60,245 bases of DNA from Clostridia bacterium. GTDB lineage: Bacteria; Bacillota; Clostridia; Christensenellales; Aristaeellaceae. Shown here piece after piece: positions 33,165-60,245 of the stretch. The notes under the pieces are model-generated. The model was not told where the DNA came from and searched no databases. It saw nothing but the letters and a program-made list of their open reading frames with translations. The position numbers and the translations under genes are program-made. The stretch's first letter is position 1, and every line of letters starts with the position of its first letter. The stretch lies in assembly GCA_017527065.1 (NCBI GenBank), contig JAFXQO010000075.1, positions 1 through 60,245 of the forward strand. The letters are read 5' to 3'.

Positions 33165-33617
33165 TTATCGGTTGTTTAGCAGTTTGTTCAGTTCCTCGAT
33201 GAAGTTCTCCAGGTCGGTAAACTGGCGGTAGACCGACGCAAACCGGACGTAAGACACCTTGTCAAGCTCCTTGAGTCCGTCCATGACCATTTCGCCGATC
33301 TCGGCGCTGGTGATTTCCTGATCGCTCGCATAGGCCTTCATTTCGATCCGGTCGGTCAGTTCGTCTATAGCGGACATGGATACCGGCCGCTTCTCGCAGG
33401 CTTTCAGGATGCCCTGGCGGAGCTTTTCCGAATCGAAGGGCTCGCGCCGCTTGTCCTTTTTGACCACCATCAGCGGAATGGTATCGACTTTTTCATAGGT
33501 GGTGAAGCGCCTGCCGCATTTTTCACATTCGCGCCGCCTGCGTATGGCGTTGCCATCCTCCACGGAACGGGAATCGATCACGCGGCTTTCCTCGCATCCG
33601 CAGAAAACGCACTTCAT
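33165..33617 (-). CDS. nrdR: Transcriptional repressor NrdR
   Basis: A 150-residue repressor of ribonucleotide reductase genes. A zinc ribbon is formed by C3, C6, C31 and C34 (MKCVFC...CEKC), followed by an ATP-cone (VVKKDKRREPFDSEKL) that senses ATP/dATP. The ATG at 33617 is preferred over an upstream GTG at 33623 because the protein then begins MKC as in the family and has AGGGGG 7 bases upstream. Promoter TTGACA/TAAAAT lies just before. Downstream of ylmC/ymxH and the sigG remnant, a frequent order in Clostridia. Confidence 0.97.
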   Translation of the reverse strand: MKCVFCGCEESRVIDSRSVEDGNAIRRRRECEKCGRRFTTYEKVDTIPLMVVKKDKRREPFDSEKLRQGILKACEKRPVSMSAIDELTDRIEMKAYASDQEITSAEIGEMVMDGLKELDKVSYVRFASVYRQFTDLENFIEELNKLLNNR

Positions 33618-33633
33618 CCCCACGCCCCCTATA

Positions 33634-33702: not shown

Positions 33703-33954
33703 TCAACAAGTCTGAAAGAAGTTAGTGTCAAGTTCCACCAAAATGACGTCATCCCCTATTCGCCGCACATGGCTCCATGGGATGACAATGCCTTCCCGGA
33801 CGCTGCGGAGCATCCCCTTCCAGCCCGTCTGGGCGGGCACCACCAGCGCAACAGCGCAGGCCTGATCGTTCAATTCGATATCGATCGGATGCCCGTATCG
33901 CTTTCCGTCGCAGATGTTGATGACTTCCTTTTCGCGCAATTCAGAGAACACCAT
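33703..33954 (-). CDS. ylmC: YlmC/YmxH family sporulation protein (PRC-barrel)
   Basis: An 83-residue PRC-barrel-like protein. The pattern FSELREKEVINICDGKRYG-P-D matches the family start (LSELxxKEVVNVxDGxxLG). The start at 33954 has GAGGTG 6 bases upstream; a longer frame to 34014 runs into the sigG terminus. In Bacillus and Clostridia this gene lies just downstream of sigG, exactly as here. The role is poorly understood; it is conserved with sporulation genes. Confidence 0.88.
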   Translation of the reverse strand: MVFSELREKEVINICDGKRYGHPIDIELNDQACAVALVVPAQTGWKGMLRSVREGIVIPWSHVRRIGDDVILVELDTNFFQTC

Positions 33955-34055
33955 GGCCATCACCTCATGGCATTTTATGAGCGGCGAGGCCATGCTGCCA
34001 TCAGGGCGCGGCAAAAAAGAAGGCGGAAAGGCTGTCCTTCCCGCTTGACCGAATA

Positions 34056-34547
34056 TCAGAGATAGCGCTGCATCTGCCTGAGCGCCGCCTTCTCCAGGCG
34101 CGACACCTGCGCCTGGGAGATGCCGATTTCCTCGGCCACCTCCATTTGCGTGCGTCCCTCGAAATAGCGCTTTTCCACGATGCCCCGCTCGCGCTCATTC
34201 AGGCGCGCCATGGCCTGCCTCAGCGAGAGGTCGCGCACCCAATCCTCCACCTCCACGCGCTCGTCCTTCACCTGATCCATCACGTAGATCGGCTCGCCGC
34301 CGTCCTGAAACACGGGCTCGAACAGCGACACGGGATCCTGTATGGCGTCCAGCGCAAGGCTCACTTCTTTTTCATCGCAGCCGAGCTCCTTCGCAATCTC
34401 CGCCGCGTCCGGCTCGCGCCCCAGCCGGTAGGTGAGCGCCTCGCGCGCCTTGAGCGCCTTGTAGGCCAGATCCCGCAGCGAACGGCTCACGCGGACTTGA
34501 TTATTATCCCGAAGATAGCGGCGTATTTCGCCGATGATCATTGGCAT
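34056..34547 (-). CDS. sigG: 3' part of sporulation sigma factor SigG (5' third missing)
   Basis: A 163-residue reading frame that is unmistakably SigG: PMIIGEIRRYLRDNN, VSRSLRDLAYKAL, ALDAIQDPVSLFEP, GGEPIYVMDQ and TQMEVAEEIGISQAQVSRLE. Full-length SigG is about 260 residues; the homology starts at the PMII codons, so about the first 100 residues, including region 2 that binds core polymerase and the -10 element, are absent. The sequence upstream is the 3' end of a serine recombinase gene in another frame. An ATG at 34545-34547 could start the remnant, but without region 2 it should not work as a sigma factor. It is either a decayed gene or one half of a gene reassembled by recombination. 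Confidence 0.9.
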   Translation of the reverse strand: MPMIIGEIRRYLRDNNQVRVSRSLRDLAYKALKAREALTYRLGREPDAAEIAKELGCDEKEVSLALDAIQDPVSLFEPVFQDGGEPIYVMDQVKDERVEVEDWVRDLSLRQAMARLNERERGIVEKRYFEGRTQMEVAEEIGISQAQVSRLEKAALRQMQRYL

Positions 34548-34573
34548 GACGGTCTTTTGTCGAAACGCGGCTA
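34538..34573. other. Candidate element end (att junction) inside sigG
   Basis: The recombinase stop codon is at 34571-34573 and the SigG homology begins at about 34544, only 23-27 bases apart, so the breakpoint lies in this interval. On the minus strand the junction reads GTCATGCCAATGATC; it contains AATGA (34538-34542), the pentamer I recall as the crossover core of the Bacillus skin element. That pentamer is also forced by the PMI codons, so its presence may mean nothing. Confidence 0.5.
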
Positions 34574-35932
34574 CAGGCGGTAGTGGATGCTGATATTCGG
34601 CCCGTCGATCTCAACCCGCTCGATCAGTTCGCGCACGACCGAGCGCCGCTCCACCTGCGTCATCCGGTCCCACGCCTGGGCGAGGCGGCGAATCTCATCG
34701 CGTCGGCCGACTTCGGTCTCTTCTCGCACGCGCTGCGCTTCCTCGCGTTCCGCTTCCGCCCGCAGCGCCTCCAGAAGGCGTTTCTGCGCGCTGATGCTCT
34801 CCGCCAGCACGTCGTCTTCTCCGGCAGCATAAAGGTCGTAGAGCCGCTTGAGCCGGCGTTCCGCCTCGCGAATCCGCTCCGCGAGCCGCGTTCCGACGGT
34901 TTCCCCGGCCTCCTCCGCCGTCTGCTCCGGCAGGCTGAGCGCCCGGTCCAGAAAATCGCCCGTCACGGCCGCCTCGACCTCGTCGGCCCAGGCTTTTTCG
35001 TTGTCGCAATTTTCGTCGCGAATGAGGTATCGCTTGCTGCTCTGCTGCGAATAGCAGGTCAGCTTGAAGCCTTTCGCGCCCCACTTCTGATACCGCATGC
35101 GCGCGCCGCAGCGGCCGCAGTAGACAAGGCCCGTAAGCAGATGTCCGCTTTGAAAACCGCGGGCGCTGGCCCGGCGGCGGCGCTGCTCCTGAGCCGCCTG
35201 AAACACGGCCTCATCCACGATCGGTTCGTGCCGCCCGCGGTATTCCGCGCCGTTGTACTCGATCAGGCCGATGTTCGACTTGCGCGAAAGGATGTCGCGC
35301 ACCTGTTTATCGTGCTTCATGCCGGTGATCGCCGCGATGCGCGCGGTGGACAGGCCCTCGAGGTACAGCCGGTAGATCAGCCGCACGGTTTCCGCGTCCG
35401 CGTTCGGCACCAGCACGCCGCGGTCGCTGTCGTAATCATAGCCGAAGGGCGGATGGCCGCCGCCCATCCACAGCCCGGTGCGCACGCGCTCCTTCATGCC
35501 CATGCGGGTGCGCTCCCGGATGGTCTCGCGCTCCAGCTGCGCGAAGGCGGACATGATGCCCAGCATCGCCCGGCCCATGGGCGTCGAAGTGTCCATGTTT
35601 TCGTTGAGCGAGGTAAAACCGATGCCCGCCGGATTGAACACATCCTCGATGAGAAAGAGCGTGTCCTTCTGGCTGCGGGACAGCCGGTCCAGCTTATAAA
35701 CGACCACCTGCGATATGCGCCCCGCCCGCGCTTCCCCGATGAGCCGCTTCATCTCCGGCCTGTCTATGTTGCTGCCGGTGAAGCCGCCGTCGATGTAAAA
35801 TTCATAGTCCTTCCAGCCGCGGCTCCGGCAGTAGCCTTCCAGCATATCCTTCTGCGCTTCGATGCTGTAGCCTTCGTCCGCTTGCGAGTCCGTCGATACG
35901 CGGATGTACAGCGCCGCGTGCCGGCTCTTCAT
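34571..35932 (-). CDS. Large serine recombinase (SpoIVCA-like)
   Basis: A complete 453-residue serine recombinase. The catalytic domain holds S13 in YIRVSTDSQADEGYSIEAQ, then FYIDGGFTGSNIDRPE, VVVYKLDRLSR and FAQLERETIRERTRMG. The recombinase domain (GHPPFGYDYD, about residues 155-270) is followed by a zinc ribbon beginning CGRCGARMRY and a coiled coil (about 365-425). Such enzymes integrate, excise or invert DNA at att sites. Its stop lies next to the broken sigG end. Its start overlaps the stop of a 42-codon ORF by 4 bases. No phage or conjugation genes are visible nearby. Confidence 0.95.
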   Translation of the reverse strand: MKSRHAALYIRVSTDSQADEGYSIEAQKDMLEGYCRSRGWKDYEFYIDGGFTGSNIDRPEMKRLIGEARAGRISQVVVYKLDRLSRSQKDTLFLIEDVFNPAGIGFTSLNENMDTSTPMGRAMLGIMSAFAQLERETIRERTRMGMKERVRTGLWMGGGHPPFGYDYDSDRGVLVPNADAETVRLIYRLYLEGLSTARIAAITGMKHDKQVRDILSRKSNIGLIEYNGAEYRGRHEPIVDEAVFQAAQEQRRRRASARGFQSGHLLTGLVYCGRCGARMRYQKWGAKGFKLTCYSQQSSKRYLIRDENCDNEKAWADEVEAAVTGDFLDRALSLPEQTAEEAGETVGTRLAERIREAERRLKRLYDLYAAGEDDVLAESISAQKRLLEALRAEAEREEAQRVREETEVGRRDEIRRLAQAWDRMTQVERRSVVRELIERVEIDGPNISIHYRL

Positions 35933-36057
35933 CGCCTCTCCCTCCGCCGCACCCGCTCGATGACGCGCGCGATCCGCTCCGACTCAACCGGCCTGCCCGC
36001 CATATCCTCGCGCTCCACGGGCTCGCCATTCAGGAACCGTTTCTGAATAAAGATCAT
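35929..36057 (-). CDS. Small 42-residue ORF coupled to the recombinase gene
   Basis: Starts at ATG 36057 (MIFIQKRFLNGEPVERED...) with GGGAGG 9 bases upstream and ends in an ATGA overlap with the recombinase start. The C-terminal third is strongly basic (RVIERVRRRERR). No family is recognised. The tight coupling suggests co-expression with the recombinase; a recombination directionality factor or a leader peptide are possible roles, neither shown. Confidence 0.55.
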   Translation of the reverse strand: MIFIQKRFLNGEPVEREDMAGRPVESERIARVIERVRRRERR

Positions 36058-36164: not shown

Positions 36165-36227
36165 ATGGTAGAATGTATAAAATATGTTCTGTCGTCGCAC
36201 AGATCACCATTGGAGGATAAAGAGGAC

Positions 36228-38981
36228 ATGAAACAGGAAATCAGAAAAGGCCGTCATTCCGCAACGCGCTCGAAACACCGGCTGCAGCCCGAACGGCCGC
36301 GCGGGATGCTTCCGCTGCTTTCGCTGTTCCTGGCGCTGGCGCTGATATGCGAACCCATCCCTCACGCCAAGGCAAACTCGACGATATGCGGCATGGAAGA
36401 GCACACGCATTCGGGCGATTGCTATTCCTCCGTCCTCATCTGCGGACAGGCCGAATCGGAAGAACACCAGCATGACAGTTCCTGCTACGAGCAGGTTCTG
36501 ACGTGTACAAAACCGGAGCATACGCACCAGGATTCCTGCTATCCCGCTCCGGAACCCGAGCCTGAACCGCCTCAGGTGTCGAACGATCCCCCTGTAAACC
36601 AGGAACCGCAGACGCCGAATGAGCCTCAGCCCGCGAACGATCCCCAGCCTGTGGACGATCCCCAACCTGCGAACGATCCTCAGCCTGCCGATGAGCCTCA
36701 GCCTGCGGACGAGCCCCAGCCCGCGGACGAGCCCCAGCCTGTGGATAACCCCCAGCCCGCGGACGAGCCCCAGCCTGTGGATAACCCCCAGCCTGCGGAC
36801 GAGCCCCAGCCTGTGGATAACCCCCAGCCTGCGGACGAGCCTCAGCCCGCGGATCAGCCCCAGCCTGAGAATGAACCTCAGCCTGCGGATGAATCTTCCG
36901 TGACAGACACGCCCCAGGGCGACGCTGAATCGCAGCAGGGCGAGCCGGAATCATCGGAAGCGCCCGCCGATCCGAACGCGACGCCGTCCGCGGATGATCC
37001 GGCGCCCTCCGTAACACCCGAAGTAACTCCTTCGCCTGAAGCGTCTGTCGACCCCGATGCCTCCGCGACGCCGGAAGCGTCCGTCACTCCCGAAGCTTCC
37101 CCGACGCCTTCTCCTACCCCCACGATCAACCCCGACGCAACGCCCATGCCGGGCGAAGACGACGACGCCATCGAACAGGACGAACTCGATCCCGACGCCC
37201 CGACGCCCCTGAAAATCCAGATGTCGGTCAAACCGGGCTTCGCGAAGGTCGGGCAGAATGTCGTATGGAGCTTTACGATCGAAAGCGAACGCGAGCCGGA
37301 GATGAACTGGTATCTCTACAAGGGCAAGACGCTTCTGAAATCCGGCAAATTCGTCAACGGCGAACGCAGCTTTGAATACCAGCCTGGTGAGGCGGGCGTT
37401 TATTCATTCAAACTGGTCGCTAAGGTCCGGGTAGGCGAGGGAGAAAACGCCTCGCAGGTCAAGATCGCAAAAGAAGTGAAGCTGACCGTCATATCCGCGT
37501 CGGACGCGCCCAGCAATGACCCGCCCGTCGAAACAGACGTCCTTTGGACCGTCGCCCCCAACCCTTCCGCCCCGTTGAGCGTTGACGTGTCTCTTGAAGA
37601 GAATACCGTCGTGATCGGGGAAGAAGCTGTTTGGCATTACGCCGTCCAGAGCGTGGAGAAGGCGGAAATCGTATGGCAGCTCTTCAAGGACGGCTACGAG
37701 TTGGGCAGCGGCGTGTATGACAGCAACGTCGGTTCATACAATTACACGCCCAGCGAACTCGGCATATACGCTTTCAGGCTGACGGCGGTCACCCAGCGCA
37801 AGGCCGCGGATGATTCGGAAGAAACCATTACGGAAGAAAAATCCAAAGTCTGTAAGCTGCAGGTCACAGAACCGCCGGAGTTAACCGTCGAAGTCTCGGC
37901 CCACGCATCCTATTGCTTCGGCGGAGATTCCATGACATTCGGCCTCAAGCACAGCGATAACAGATACGCCGAGGCGGCCAACACCCACATCACCGTCCGC
38001 CAGGCGGGCATGCAGATCTATGAATCTTATGAATTCAAGGAATCCGTCCGCGTATGGCCCGAGGTACTTGACGAAGCCTGCACGCTGGAACTGACCGTGG
38101 AGATGGAGGACCAGTTCGGGCAGAGGGCGAAAGCCTCGGTCGAGGTACCCTGCCCCATGCACGAGACCGAGAACCGCTACACGTGGCAGCAGACGCTCAA
38201 GGATGTGAAGCTGACCGGAAATTGGCCGCAGGACATTCTGGCGGTCGCGAAATCGCAGCTGGGCTACAAGGAAAGCCAGAAGGATTTCATCATCCGCGAC
38301 GACGGAGAGCGGCAGGGCTGGTCCCGCTACGGCGCGTGGTACGGCATGCCCTATGAAGAATGGTGCTCGATGTTCGTCTCCTTCTGCCTGGAAAACGCCA
38401 ACGTGCCGGAATGGGCCGTTCCGCAGTCGGCCAGCCAGCAGCGCCTGCGCAGCCGGTTGATCAATCAGGGTCTTTACGCCGCCCGCGAAGACGCCGAACC
38501 CCGGCCCGGCGATCTCATCTTCTTCGATCATGAGACCGAAACATGGGAGAACGGCTACGGCGCAACCGATCACATCGGCATCGTGCTGGCCGTGGACGAC
38601 GAGCGCGTCTATACCATCGAGGGCAACAGCAACATCCGCGTCAGAGAGCGCGAGTATCTGCTGACCGATGAGCACATCACCGGCTATGGCCTGGTCAATC
38701 TGGTTTACGAAGCCAACCATCCCGAGCCGGAAGATGAGATTTCGGAAGAAGATAAGCCAGAAGAAGATGTGGCAGAAGATGTGCCGGAGGAAAAGCTTCC
38801 AAAGGCAAAGCAGCCGAACAAAGGCCAATTGGAAGAAAAGCTGCCGGATGGCGTGAACGACGAGCCTGTAGCGCCCGACGCTGAAACGGCCGCTCTCCCC
38901 TCTCCCTCCAAGGCGGGAAAGATGCGCCAGCCCGTGACTGCGGAAGGCGATGATGCAGACAGCGCATCAGACGAGGCTTGA
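36228..38981 (+). CDS. Secreted modular protein with Pro-rich repeats and CHAP amidase domain
   Basis: A 917-residue secreted protein. Basic N-terminus and signal sequence (MLPLLSLFLALALICEPIPHAKA, residues about 27-49); three Cys/His modules (CGMEEHTHSGDCY-like) at 50-110; a Pro/Gln/Asp hexapeptide repeat region to about 220, then a Pro/Thr/Ala linker to about 320; three Ig-like or immunoglobulin-type beta domains to about 640; a CHAP domain at about 680-830 with Cys in EEWCSMFVSFC and His in ATDHIGIV, typical of peptidoglycan amidases/endopeptidases; and a Glu/Lys-rich tail. No LPXTG or membrane anchor. GGAGG lies 11 bases before the start. The target is probably cell wall; substrate unknown. 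Confidence 0.82.
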   Translation: MKQEIRKGRHSATRSKHRLQPERPRGMLPLLSLFLALALICEPIPHAKANSTICGMEEHTHSGDCYSSVLICGQAESEEHQHDSSCYEQVLTCTKPEHTHQDSCYPAPEPEPEPPQVSNDPPVNQEPQTPNEPQPANDPQPVDDPQPANDPQPADEPQPADEPQPADEPQPVDNPQPADEPQPVDNPQPADEPQPVDNPQPADEPQPADQPQPENEPQPADESSVTDTPQGDAESQQGEPESSEAPADPNATPSADDPAPSVTPEVTPSPEASVDPDASATPEASVTPEASPTPSPTPTINPDATPMPGEDDDAIEQDELDPDAPTPLKIQMSVKPGFAKVGQNVVWSFTIESEREPEMNWYLYKGKTLLKSGKFVNGERSFEYQPGEAGVYSFKLVAKVRVGEGENASQVKIAKEVKLTVISASDAPSNDPPVETDVLWTVAPNPSAPLSVDVSLEENTVVIGEEAVWHYAVQSVEKAEIVWQLFKDGYELGSGVYDSNVGSYNYTPSELGIYAFRLTAVTQRKAADDSEETITEEKSKVCKLQVTEPPELTVEVSAHASYCFGGDSMTFGLKHSDNRYAEAANTHITVRQAGMQIYESYEFKESVRVWPEVLDEACTLELTVEMEDQFGQRAKASVEVPCPMHETENRYTWQQTLKDVKLTGNWPQDILAVAKSQLGYKESQKDFIIRDDGERQGWSRYGAWYGMPYEEWCSMFVSFCLENANVPEWAVPQSASQQRLRSRLINQGLYAAREDAEPRPGDLIFFDHETETWENGYGATDHIGIVLAVDDERVYTIEGNSNIRVREREYLLTDEHITGYGLVNLVYEANHPEPEDEISEEDKPEEDVAEDVPEEKLPKAKQPNKGQLEEKLPDGVNDEPVAPDAETAALPSPSKAGKMRQPVTAEGDDADSASDEA
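36600..36893 (+). repeat. Tandem hexapeptide/dodecapeptide coding repeat
   Basis: About 16 copies of an 18-bp unit encode xPQPxD/N. Within it a 36-bp unit encoding EPQPVDNPQPAD is repeated three times almost identically at 36729-36836. Such DNA is prone to slippage, so copy number may vary between strains. Confidence 0.9.
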
Positions 38982-46817: not shown

Positions 46818-47609
46818 TCAGCCGATCTCTTCAGGCTCGCAAAGCATTTCATCCAAGTCGTCCAGATCCGGGCCGGCGCTCTCCGTTTCGACGGCCGGTT
46901 CCCCAAGTCTTTCGCCCGTGTTGCCGTTGTAGCGCGCTTTGCGCCGGCTTCCTTCGTCGGCCTCTCCCCTCTCCCCGGCCTGGCGCGAGCCGTCGCGCGG
47001 CTGAATTTCGCCGGCCGTATCGAAGGCCGGGTTGAAGGCGTAGAAATTGCGCGCGTTCAGCTTATCCTGAACGATGCGCAGCGTCTCGCCAAACCGCTGA
47101 TAGTGGACCAATTCCCGCTGGCGGAGGAACCGGATGGGATCAATGACATCCGGATCGTCCAGGAGGCGCAGGATGTTATCATAGGTCGTGCGCGCCTTCT
47201 GTTCCGCGGCGAGGTCCTCGTTGAGGTCGGTGATGGGATCGCCCTTGGACTGGAAGAAATTCGAGGTGAAAGGCTCGCCGCTGGCCGCCTGAGGCCAAAC
47301 GCCCGTGGTGTGGTCGATATAATACGGCGCGAACCCCTGCGCCTGCGCTTCTTCCGGCGTCAGGTTGCGGGTCAGCTGGTAGATGATGGCGCTCACCATT
47401 TCCAGATGCGCCAGTTCCTCCGTTCCGATGTCCGTGAGCGTTGCCATGCCTTCCCGATACGGCATGGCATAGCGCTGGCTGAGGTAGCGCATCGAGGCGG
47501 CCAGCTCGCCGTCCGGCCCGCCGACCTGAGAGATGATCAGCGAAGCCAATGTGGGATTGGGGCGGCTGATCCGGACGGGATACTGCAATTTCTTCTCATA
47601 TGCCCACAT
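46818..47609 (-). CDS. cotJC: Spore coat CotJC / manganese catalase family protein
   Basis: A 263-residue ferritin-like protein of the manganese catalase family (MWAYEKKLQYPVRI start; DIGTEELAHLEMV; FLRQRELVHYQRFG), giving the Glu/His ligands of a di-Mn centre. In Bacillus CotJC is part of the spore coat. The last 60 residues are a hydrophilic extension not needed for the fold. Third gene of cotJA-cotJB-cotJC; stop followed by the hairpin at 46759-46804. Confidence 0.95.
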   Translation of the reverse strand: MWAYEKKLQYPVRISRPNPTLASLIISQVGGPDGELAASMRYLSQRYAMPYREGMATLTDIGTEELAHLEMVSAIIYQLTRNLTPEEAQAQGFAPYYIDHTTGVWPQAASGEPFTSNFFQSKGDPITDLNEDLAAEQKARTTYDNILRLLDDPDVIDPIRFLRQRELVHYQRFGETLRIVQDKLNARNFYAFNPAFDTAGEIQPRDGSRQAGERGEADEGSRRKARYNGNTGERLGEPAVETESAGPDLDDLDEMLCEPEEIG

Positions 47610-59513: not shown

Positions 59514-60245
59514 TCAAAAAACCACAGGGATAAAAGTATAGCCATAATCGTTCGCGTATGTTTCCGCATACGACCCTGCCACACCATAGACGCTCGTGAG
59601 GCCGGTGCAGCCATAGAAAGCGTATTTGCTGATGCTTGTCACGCTGCCCGGGATGTTGACGCTCGTGAGGCCGGTGCAGCCTTCGAAAGCGTATTTGCTG
59701 ATGCTGGTCACGCCGGCCGGGATGACGACGCTCGTGAGGCCGGTGCAGCGATAGAAAGTCATGCTGCCGATGCTGGTCACGCTGTCCGGGATGGTGACAC
59801 TCGTGAGGCCGGTGCAGTCACGGAAAGCCTCGTCGCCGATGCTTGTCACGCTGTCCGGGATGGTGACGCTCGTGAGGCCGGTGCAGCCATAGAAAGCGCC
59901 GCTGCCGATGCTAGTCACGCCATCCGGAATGGTGATGCTCGGGAGACCGGTGCAGTTACCGAAAGCGCCGAGGCCGATGCTTGTCACGCTGTCCGGGATG
60001 GTGATGCTCGGGAGACCGGTGCAGCCATAGAAAGCTTTGCTGTCGATGCTTGTCACGCCATACGGGATGACGATGCTCGTGAGGCTGGAGCAGCGATAGA
60101 AAGCATAGCTGCCGATGCTTGTCACGCCTTCGTTCATGATTACTTGCCTGATGTCTGCACCCCAAGGAGCAGAAGGAATATATTTGCCATTGTAATATTG
60201 CGCTGTATAGTTATTCATGCTCCCTGTTCCACTGATCGTGAGCAC
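59514..60245 (-). CDS. BspA-type leucine-rich-repeat surface protein, 5' part outside window
   Basis: 243 residues are visible. The N-terminus lies beyond 60245. Nine or so copies of the 23-residue LRR_5/BspA repeat (TSIGSxAFYGCTGLTSVTIPDSV type), each about 69 bp, end in YAETYANDYGYTFIPVVF. Such proteins are usually secreted adhesins. The signal peptide is not in view. Confidence 0.9.
   Translation of the reverse strand: MLTISGTGSMNNYTAQYYNGKYIPSAPWGADIRQVIMNEGVTSIGSYAFYRCSSLTSIVIPYGVTSIDSKAFYGCTGLPSITIPDSVTSIGLGAFGNCTGLPSITIPDGVTSIGSGAFYGCTGLTSVTIPDSVTSIGDEAFRDCTGLTSVTIPDSVTSIGSMTFYRCTGLTSVVIPAGVTSISKYAFEGCTGLTSVNIPGSVTSISKYAFYGCTGLTSVYGVAGSYAETYANDYGYTFIPVVF

Follow-up and report, generated by a model that had tools for sequence, protein, structure and literature searches.

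In the genome of the gut bacterium to which the window belongs (the window being the whole 60,245-nucleotide stretch of clostridial DNA analysed here), sigG, the gene for the forespore sigma factor, is broken in two at a single proline codon, and the 3′ half adjoins the gene of a phage-type integrase. This split is genuine, it has been conserved, and it goes together with the integrase; the cell probably must rearrange its chromosome to finish a spore. From the comparison of the sequences, we consider it likely, if well short of certain, that sigG is here split in the developmental manner known from skin, with the two halves being rejoined by the recombinase during sporulation.

Results

A split sigG gene beside a complete recombinase

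In a profile search, the 163-codon frame at 34056–34547 on the minus strand matched positions 91–253 of the SigG model TIGR02850 (E 1.7e-77), with the homology ending abruptly at the PMIIGE codons; a complete recombinase gene upstream has its stop codon 23 bp away. The original prediction, which had read this frame as the C-terminal two-thirds of SigG stopping at PMIIGE and adjoining a complete serine recombinase, is borne out in both respects, the recombinase having 453 residues and three Pfam domains. The following features of the window are referred to below.

33165..33623, minus strand: nrdR, downstream neighbour of sigG (TIGR00244, E 1e-57)
33703..34014, minus strand: 103-aa ORF between sigG and nrdR (conserved in G002 and G004)
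34056..34547, minus strand: sigG 3′ part, 163 codons from PMIIGE, ATG-initiated (TIGR02850 positions 91–253)
34542..34545, minus strand: putative crossover core NCCN (GCCA), its central CC being the first two bases of the Pro codon
34546..34566, minus strand: P arm of the predicted att half-site, GTTTCGACAAAAGACCGTCAT on the minus strand
34571..35932, minus strand: large serine recombinase/integrase, 453 aa (Pfam Resolvase, Recombinase, Zn_ribbon_recom)
35929..36057, minus strand: 42-aa ORF with an R-Y/F-L/I-N-G motif, its stop overlapping the recombinase start

The 3′ part, which we take to comprise sigma regions 3–4, is followed by the 103-aa ORF, which has no Pfam match and presumably occupies the ylmC/ymxH position, and then by nrdR, which is retained beside the sigG 3′ half in G002 and G004 as well. 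As anticipated by the original prediction for a split gene, the missing 5′ part (model positions 1–95) is present in the same genome (G000; 3.07 Mb in 85 contigs, 89% complete) on another contig, at C16:34640–34924 on the minus strand, directly behind sigE in the order spoIIGA, sigE. No intact sigG, which would have spoken against a split, was found by profile search in the 85 contigs of this 89%-complete genome.

Joining the halves in silico at their common core gave a 257-aa SigG that scored 433 bits against NF006071 (cut-off 372) and 430 bits against TIGR02850, below the cut-off of 457, a threshold that relatives with an intact gene also often fail to reach (it is passed by 13 of 100 genomes). 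Spo0A and SigE of the window genome lie above their curated cut-offs, and SigF and SpoIIGA lie below theirs, so that sporulation of the species is not assured.

Other parts of the window hold several features of separate interest. A surface-like protein of 938 aa, in which long repeats of the PQPADE type are combined with a CHAP domain at the C terminus (36165–38978, plus strand), is encoded divergently from the recombinase operon, its gene being preceded by a sigma-A-like promoter (TTGACA-TATAAT, by eye). The protein at 46818–47609 (minus strand) has a weak manganese-catalase match, below cut-off, and a strong match to phrog_7573, a phage family of unknown function. At 59514–60245 the contig ends inside a leucine-rich-repeat gene (BspA-like, by eye), which is a possible cause of the assembly break.

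The recombinase and its small upstream ORF

With a Resolvase N-domain, a Recombinase domain and a zinc ribbon all present, the protein beside sigG is, by its predicted domains, a large serine recombinase; it matches the PHROG 95 integrase (E 4e-121), and its orthologues in two sister species (G002 and G004), 80–84% identical, likewise lie beside the sigG 3′ halves. The 42-aa ORF just upstream has no Pfam family match. Of 29 cellular loci examined by script, 20 have an ORF of about 40–55 aa with its motif immediately before the recombinase, often overlapping the recombinase start (a further script match in G352 was set aside as unlike, and the small ORF of G348 was seen by eye), and they were seen by eye in 9 of 10 viral-set loci, corresponding to six of seven distinct sequences. 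On these grounds, the ORF is a candidate directionality factor.

Among the 32 genomes in which we found sigG to be split, the recombinase was detected in 27; at E ≤ 1e-60 it was found in none of G001, G039 and G042, and G371 and G754 lay outside the whole-genome recombinase search. Three individual loci deserve mention. The recombinase frame of G048 (L091, 9821–11173) contains two TAA stops, while its sigG is still split and its att arms match at 16 of 21 positions; this may be a decaying case or an assembly error. In G757 (L267, C10:22058–26631), other genes separate the sigG 3′ half from the recombinase, which is encoded about 2.7 kb downstream of it and on the opposite strand, an arrangement that is intermediate between linked and unlinked recombinases. 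Finally, the palindrome behind the recombinase of G351 (L101, just after 3010) is a different one, TTTGCTAACTGTTC...GAACAGTTAGCAAA, and could be either a terminator or the site that serves some other target.

Both junctions carry matching recombination arms

The 5′ half reads TATGCCGTGCCAATGA then CGGGCGTTTGGCGAAAA, and the 3′ half reads TTTCGACAAAAGACCGTCATGCCAATGA then TCATCGG; joined at the common core they encode TYAVPMIIGEIRRYL. The GCCA core of the window is found in identical form at the 5′ half on C16, and the junction bases TGCCAATGA, a second copy of which the original prediction had proposed to look for, are present at both junctions. Because the alignment was anchored on the Pro codon, the core CC at both junctions is partly forced, and the shared CC core is not counted as independent evidence.

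The outer sides of the two junctions are inverted repeats of each other and are, as far as the letters tell, the two arms of a predicted attP, with the P arm and the P′ arm behind the 5′ half agreeing at 17 of 21 positions in the window genome. Across 25 genomes compared by script, the two arms agreed on average at 15.9 of 21 positions within a genome and at 11.6 between genomes, and over the middle ten positions at 6.4 and 3.7, respectively. The observed within-genome agreement was reached in 0 of 20,000 permutations, and again in 0 of 20,000 for the middle ten positions when one genome was used per hand-assigned clade (19 genomes); the test had been run first on 21 genomes with hand-copied arms and was then scripted on 25. 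Individual values ranged from 12/21, near the between-genome mean (G358 and G361), to 20/21 (G348 and G354), and G811 and G841, the compact cases described below, agreed at 13/21, also near that mean. The four-base core was unlike at the two junctions in 10 of the 25 genomes. The arms thus drift among species yet remain in step at both loci, as would be expected if one recombinase binds both.

No accepted attP palindrome, the mark of the rejoined state, was found at up to one mismatch in the 32 genomes searched, of which 27 are split (all the split genomes other than G754, G755, G757, G811 and G841). The pattern gave nine matches in seven genomes, which were judged by eye to be due to chance; a backward control pattern matched four genomes.

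The same split recurs across clostridial families

Counting the window genome, sigG is split at the Val-Pro-Met codons in 32 genomes from several clostridial families, with both junctions in hand in 25 of them and at least one junction in all 32; since the same break recurs in so many genomes, chance is excluded. Within the genus of the window genome, G002 and G004 each carry the recombinase together with the 3′ half on one contig, while a second contig bears the 5′ half; the 5′ half is present in G001, and no sigG half was found in G003 (72% complete). In the rest of the family, both halves are present in G042 and G048, and the 3′ half in G039. At E ≤ 1e-25, the 5′ half matched 154 of 308 family genomes, many of which are incomplete, and among the matches listed the open frames were at least 193 aa long, as expected of an intact or contig-cut sigG, except in G000, G001, G002, G004, G042 and G048.

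A scan of named species genomes for the recombinase, based on six exact peptide patterns and hence finding only relatives that keep one of them, returned 23 loci, two of which were those of G002 and G004. Among the other 21 recombinase-bearing genomes, sigG was split in 19 (both halves in 16, the 3′ half only in two, the 5′ half only in one; positions 91–97 or nearby), intact in one (G351) and not found in one (G349). Three of the four genomes of family f36 carry a split sigG, the fourth (65% complete) showing none, and the split was also found in four of six genomes of family f38, which by coordinates are the same genomes as four of the 21. In a 117-genome sample of the order of G367, searched down to about E 2e-50, the genomes with a split sigG among the matches listed were G367, G757, G811 and G841. 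A 3′-junction pattern that matches 21 of 24 known 3′ junctions gave three matches in a 392-genome sample of the class, namely G000, G371 and G404 (the last being the same as G363). G828, with a 3′ half at a contig edge, and G043, with a truncated match, were left out of the counts.

Purifying selection on both halves and on the recombinase

Among related pairs of split genomes, dN/dS was 0.02–0.14 in 9 of 10 pairs with finite dS for the 5′ half, 0.00–0.17 in 9 of 9 pairs for the 3′ half, and 0.03–0.18 in 7 of 8 pairs with finite dS for the recombinase. These are NG86 estimates on short ungapped stretches (75 and 33 codons), and dS was infinite in G355/G363 for the 5′ half and in G354/G355 for the recombinase. 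By these sequence-based estimates, both sigG halves and the recombinase are under purifying selection.

Compact elements and dispersed halves

On a 458 kb contig of G841, the sigG 5′ half (263931–263647) is followed by 6.4 kb and then by the 3′ half (257232–256750), everything being on a single strand in direct orientation with the recombinase last; G811 has the identical arrangement on a 14 kb contig, again with a 6.4 kb element and the recombinase inside. The cargo in G811 matches iron alcohol dehydrogenase, aldehyde ferredoxin oxidoreductase and a MoeB/ThiF protein in NCBIfam, all below curated cut-offs, and a ferredoxin (in the G841 frames) and a MoaD-like protein (no NCBIfam match) were named by eye. 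SpoIIR, above its cut-off, lies further downstream in G811. These two elements represent the skin arrangement in sigG, with predicted metabolic-type cargo.

The window genome differs in that its halves lie on two contigs, C16 continuing for 34.6 kb past the 5′ half and C30 for 25.7 kb past the 3′ half, which places the halves at least 60 kb apart if they are in direct orientation. The flanking stretches hold core genes, with SepF, DivIVA, LspA and Lgt on one side and MutL and RecD2 on the other, which would make simple excision costly. Recombinase aside, a PHROG scan of nine neighbour proteins (five from the window, four from C16) detected no phage structural or replication genes; the matches were confined to an endolysin-like one for the CHAP protein and to phage families of unknown function. 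The proposal in the original prediction of a skin-like arrangement is supported by the split gene, the junction bases and the compact elements of two relatives, but no discrete element is visible here, and the arrangement in the window genome has gone beyond that of a classical skin element.

Halves are dispersed in other genomes too. In G354, the 5′ half has IF-2 and NusA as neighbours at a distance of less than 7 kb, and for G367 the separation bound is about 171 kb (118 + 53). The recombinase tree contains a clade of twelve genomes (fork support 80/80) in which the recombinase is beside neither half in the sequence examined and in which, as in the window genome, the halves are widely separated within ordinary chromosome; for G353 and G367, the distance between recombinase and 5′ half is about 33 kb, the recombinase being on the upstream side, if the contig copies are numbered alike. 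The SepF-RluD cluster lies downstream of the 5′ half in G001 and upstream of the 3′ half in G000, a gene order that hints at direct orientation of the dispersed halves; we do not rely on this hint because the flanks are rearranged between species. Within the sequence examined, the recombinase-side neighbours of G000 had no match in G002 or G004, and GC skew, computed for G841 only, was judged not decisive for dispersed halves. Rejoining of dispersed halves would take the form of a very large excision or, as we prefer because excision would remove core genes, of an inversion.

Phage contigs carry related integrases and attP-like sites

A phage scan with the single recombinase as query found no match; an IMG/VR search with a recombinase alignment returned 456 relatives, of which 80 were kept and searched for sigG, and the ten closest were read closely. 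Four of these ten viral-set loci contain a sigG half, four an attP-like palindrome and two neither (L283 and L285, the latter stopping at the contig end). The sigG 5′ half accompanies the recombinase in L276, and the 3′ half does so in L281, L282 and L284, which share an identical 170 bases behind the recombinase; a 66.7 kb viral-set contig terminates in the recombinase and a sigG 3′ half. L281, L282 and L284 come from different metagenomes and have one common recombinase-sigG 3′ junction over the bases compared, suggesting a widespread provirus.

In L277–L280, on contigs of 63–148 kb, the attP-like palindrome lies directly behind the integrase, with arms agreeing at 19, 17, 17 and 23 of 24 positions, and all four have an NCCN centre with the sigG-type core in one orientation. 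PHROGs matches in L278, L279 and L282 include phage-type helicase, tail fibre, anaerobic ribonucleotide reductase and dUTPase genes; the tested proteins of L277 and L280 had no PHROGs match of known function. A 5′-junction pattern match in the viral set, L359, was dismissed as chance. Phage and cellular members are intermixed in the recombinase tree, in which some forks are open, G366 sits on a single very long branch, and the recombinase of G351, whose sigG is intact, is sister to that of split G352.

A model for the rejoining of sigG

These observations can be ordered into a scheme in which an ancestral phage-derived element with a large serine integrase would have entered sigG, using the codons TYAV-P-MIIGE as attB with crossover at the CC of the Pro codon, and would have left attL (5′ half and P′) and attR (P and 3′ half). 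Vegetative cells would then carry sigG in pieces. During sporulation, a small partner, for which the coupled 42-aa ORF is the candidate, would probably switch the recombinase to attL x attR recombination, and in-frame rejoining of the halves would allow the forespore to make sigma-G. For G811 and G841, such rejoining would be the excision of a 6.4 kb circle; in the window genome and in the clade with an unlinked recombinase, a rearrangement on a far larger scale would be needed, for which an inversion, with no loss of DNA, is the most plausible form. After germination, the integrase alone could restore the split (attP x attB), which would answer the puzzle of inheritance.

We put forward a more specific form of this scheme only tentatively: the element in the forespore sigma gene may have dissolved into the chromosome, so that in one clade both sigG halves and the recombinase would occupy separate chromosomal places, and sporulation may depend on a host-domesticated recombinase that rebuilds sigG by a reversible inversion of a large part of the chromosome, undone after germination.

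Discussion

Alternative explanations

The two alternatives named with the original prediction, a dead sigG and a misassembly, are both hard to reconcile with 32 splits at the same codons, low dN/dS and matched att arms. That sigG is a dead gene and nothing more is disfavoured by dN/dS and by the covariation of the arms. The genomes are fragmented, and in all but two of the cases with both halves these lie on different contigs, as misassembly or a binning error could produce; we nevertheless reject this reading as having practically no probability, because 32 assemblies share the break with like sites and because the 458 kb and 14 kb contigs each hold both halves. It is also very improbable that each half yields a polypeptide of its own (sigma-2 and sigma-3/4) and that the two work jointly while the DNA is never rejoined: the 3′ half has an ATG of its own, both halves are conserved, and the split point lies at what we assume to be the boundary of two sigma domains, all in keeping with this reading, which however leaves the recombinase, the matched palindromic arms and the compact elements unexplained.

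A stronger competitor, although still unlikely in our view, is that sigG is an integration hotspot at which phages and their remnants disable sporulation, with excision upon induction or rare loss and with no programmed rejoining. Phage contigs do bear attP-like sites, the 66.7 kb contig has the recombinase and sigG 3′ half at its end, and the intact sigG of G351, with a recombinase sister to that of split G352, indicates that elements come and go; loss of sigG may also be tolerated, given that the 5′ half was matched in only 154 of 308 family genomes, many of them incomplete. Mere disruption, however, does not sit well with strong purifying selection on both halves across species, with a recombinase that is still selected where it is unlinked from sigG (G353/G367/G360 and G355/G356), with att arms that still covary, or with family f36, where three of four genomes are split and the fourth, 65% complete, shows no sigG. 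Less probable again is a reversible switch (phase variation or bet hedging) that is independent of the sporulation programme and lets only some cells sporulate. Halves that are far apart in ordinary chromosome suit inversion better than excision, and assemblies display the majority state only, both of which would fit such a switch; against it, the rejoined state with attP was seen in none of the genomes searched, and G351 is the sole genome with an intact sigG among the 21 that bear the recombinase. Programmed rejoining during sporulation remains the reading that we favour.

If the inversion reading is true, the split would entail a programmed chromosome-scale rearrangement inherited through the spore. 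The data also suggest that phage integrases have repeatedly targeted the sigma genes of sporulation, and they offer a case in which an integrase and its att sites have been kept after the element itself has gone. In practical terms, gene searches in metagenomes may wrongly call split species sigG-negative.

Comparison with known systems

Among open-licence papers searched by title or start of abstract, no report of a split sigG was found, and the available extract of PMC12536801 contains nothing on one. The interrupted sporulation genes named in extracts of PMC5595907, PMC10747680 and PMC5025042 are sigK, spsM, gerE, spoVFB, spoVR and yabG, and the forespore role of sigG is named in that of PMC5942855. 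SPbeta in spsM, vfbin in spoVFB and yin in yabG are prophage-like elements, yin giving two subpopulations within one culture (extract of PMC10747680; SPbeta also in that of PMC4191935). Like the sigG case, these are prophage-like elements in sporulation genes; they differ in that their targets are not a forespore sigma gene and in being described as single inserted elements.

A further known element is gin, which interrupts the mother-cell gene gerE in Bacillus cereus ATCC10987 and, according to the extract of PMC5595907, is 28.6 kb long, lacks phage genes, has a 9 bp core and three recombinases, and uses the serine recombinase GirC with its partner GirX. Both gin and the elements of G811 and G841 are without phage genes and have a shared core; the latter hold metabolic-type genes and are smaller, at 6.4 kb with one recombinase compared with 28.6 kb and three.

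The prophage phi10403S in comK of Listeria provides an example of active lysogeny, in which excision restores the host gene and the phage re-integrates later. It concerns another host gene at another stage of life, and a comparable reversal in sigG would be an inferred one.

The nearest counterpart is the skin element of sigK in Bacillus subtilis and Clostridioides difficile, which has in common with sigG an in-frame split, a large serine recombinase and att sites. SigK acts in the mother cell, which dies, whereas the forespore, in which sigG acts, passes on its DNA. The original prediction had pointed to this difference in the target, and the gene that is split is indeed SigG by profile match, and not one acting in the terminal mother cell as sigK and gerE do. 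The sigG halves are, moreover, mostly dispersed, with the recombinase away from both in one clade. For the skin of C. difficile, excision is carried out by the recombinase CD1231 and the directionality factor CD1234 (extract of PMC5025042), a pair to which the sigG recombinase and its candidate partner may be compared. The explanation given for skin is that the mother cell leaves no descendants, and a split sigG breaks this rule, since the rearranged DNA would enter the spore, implying either re-integration after germination or inversion.
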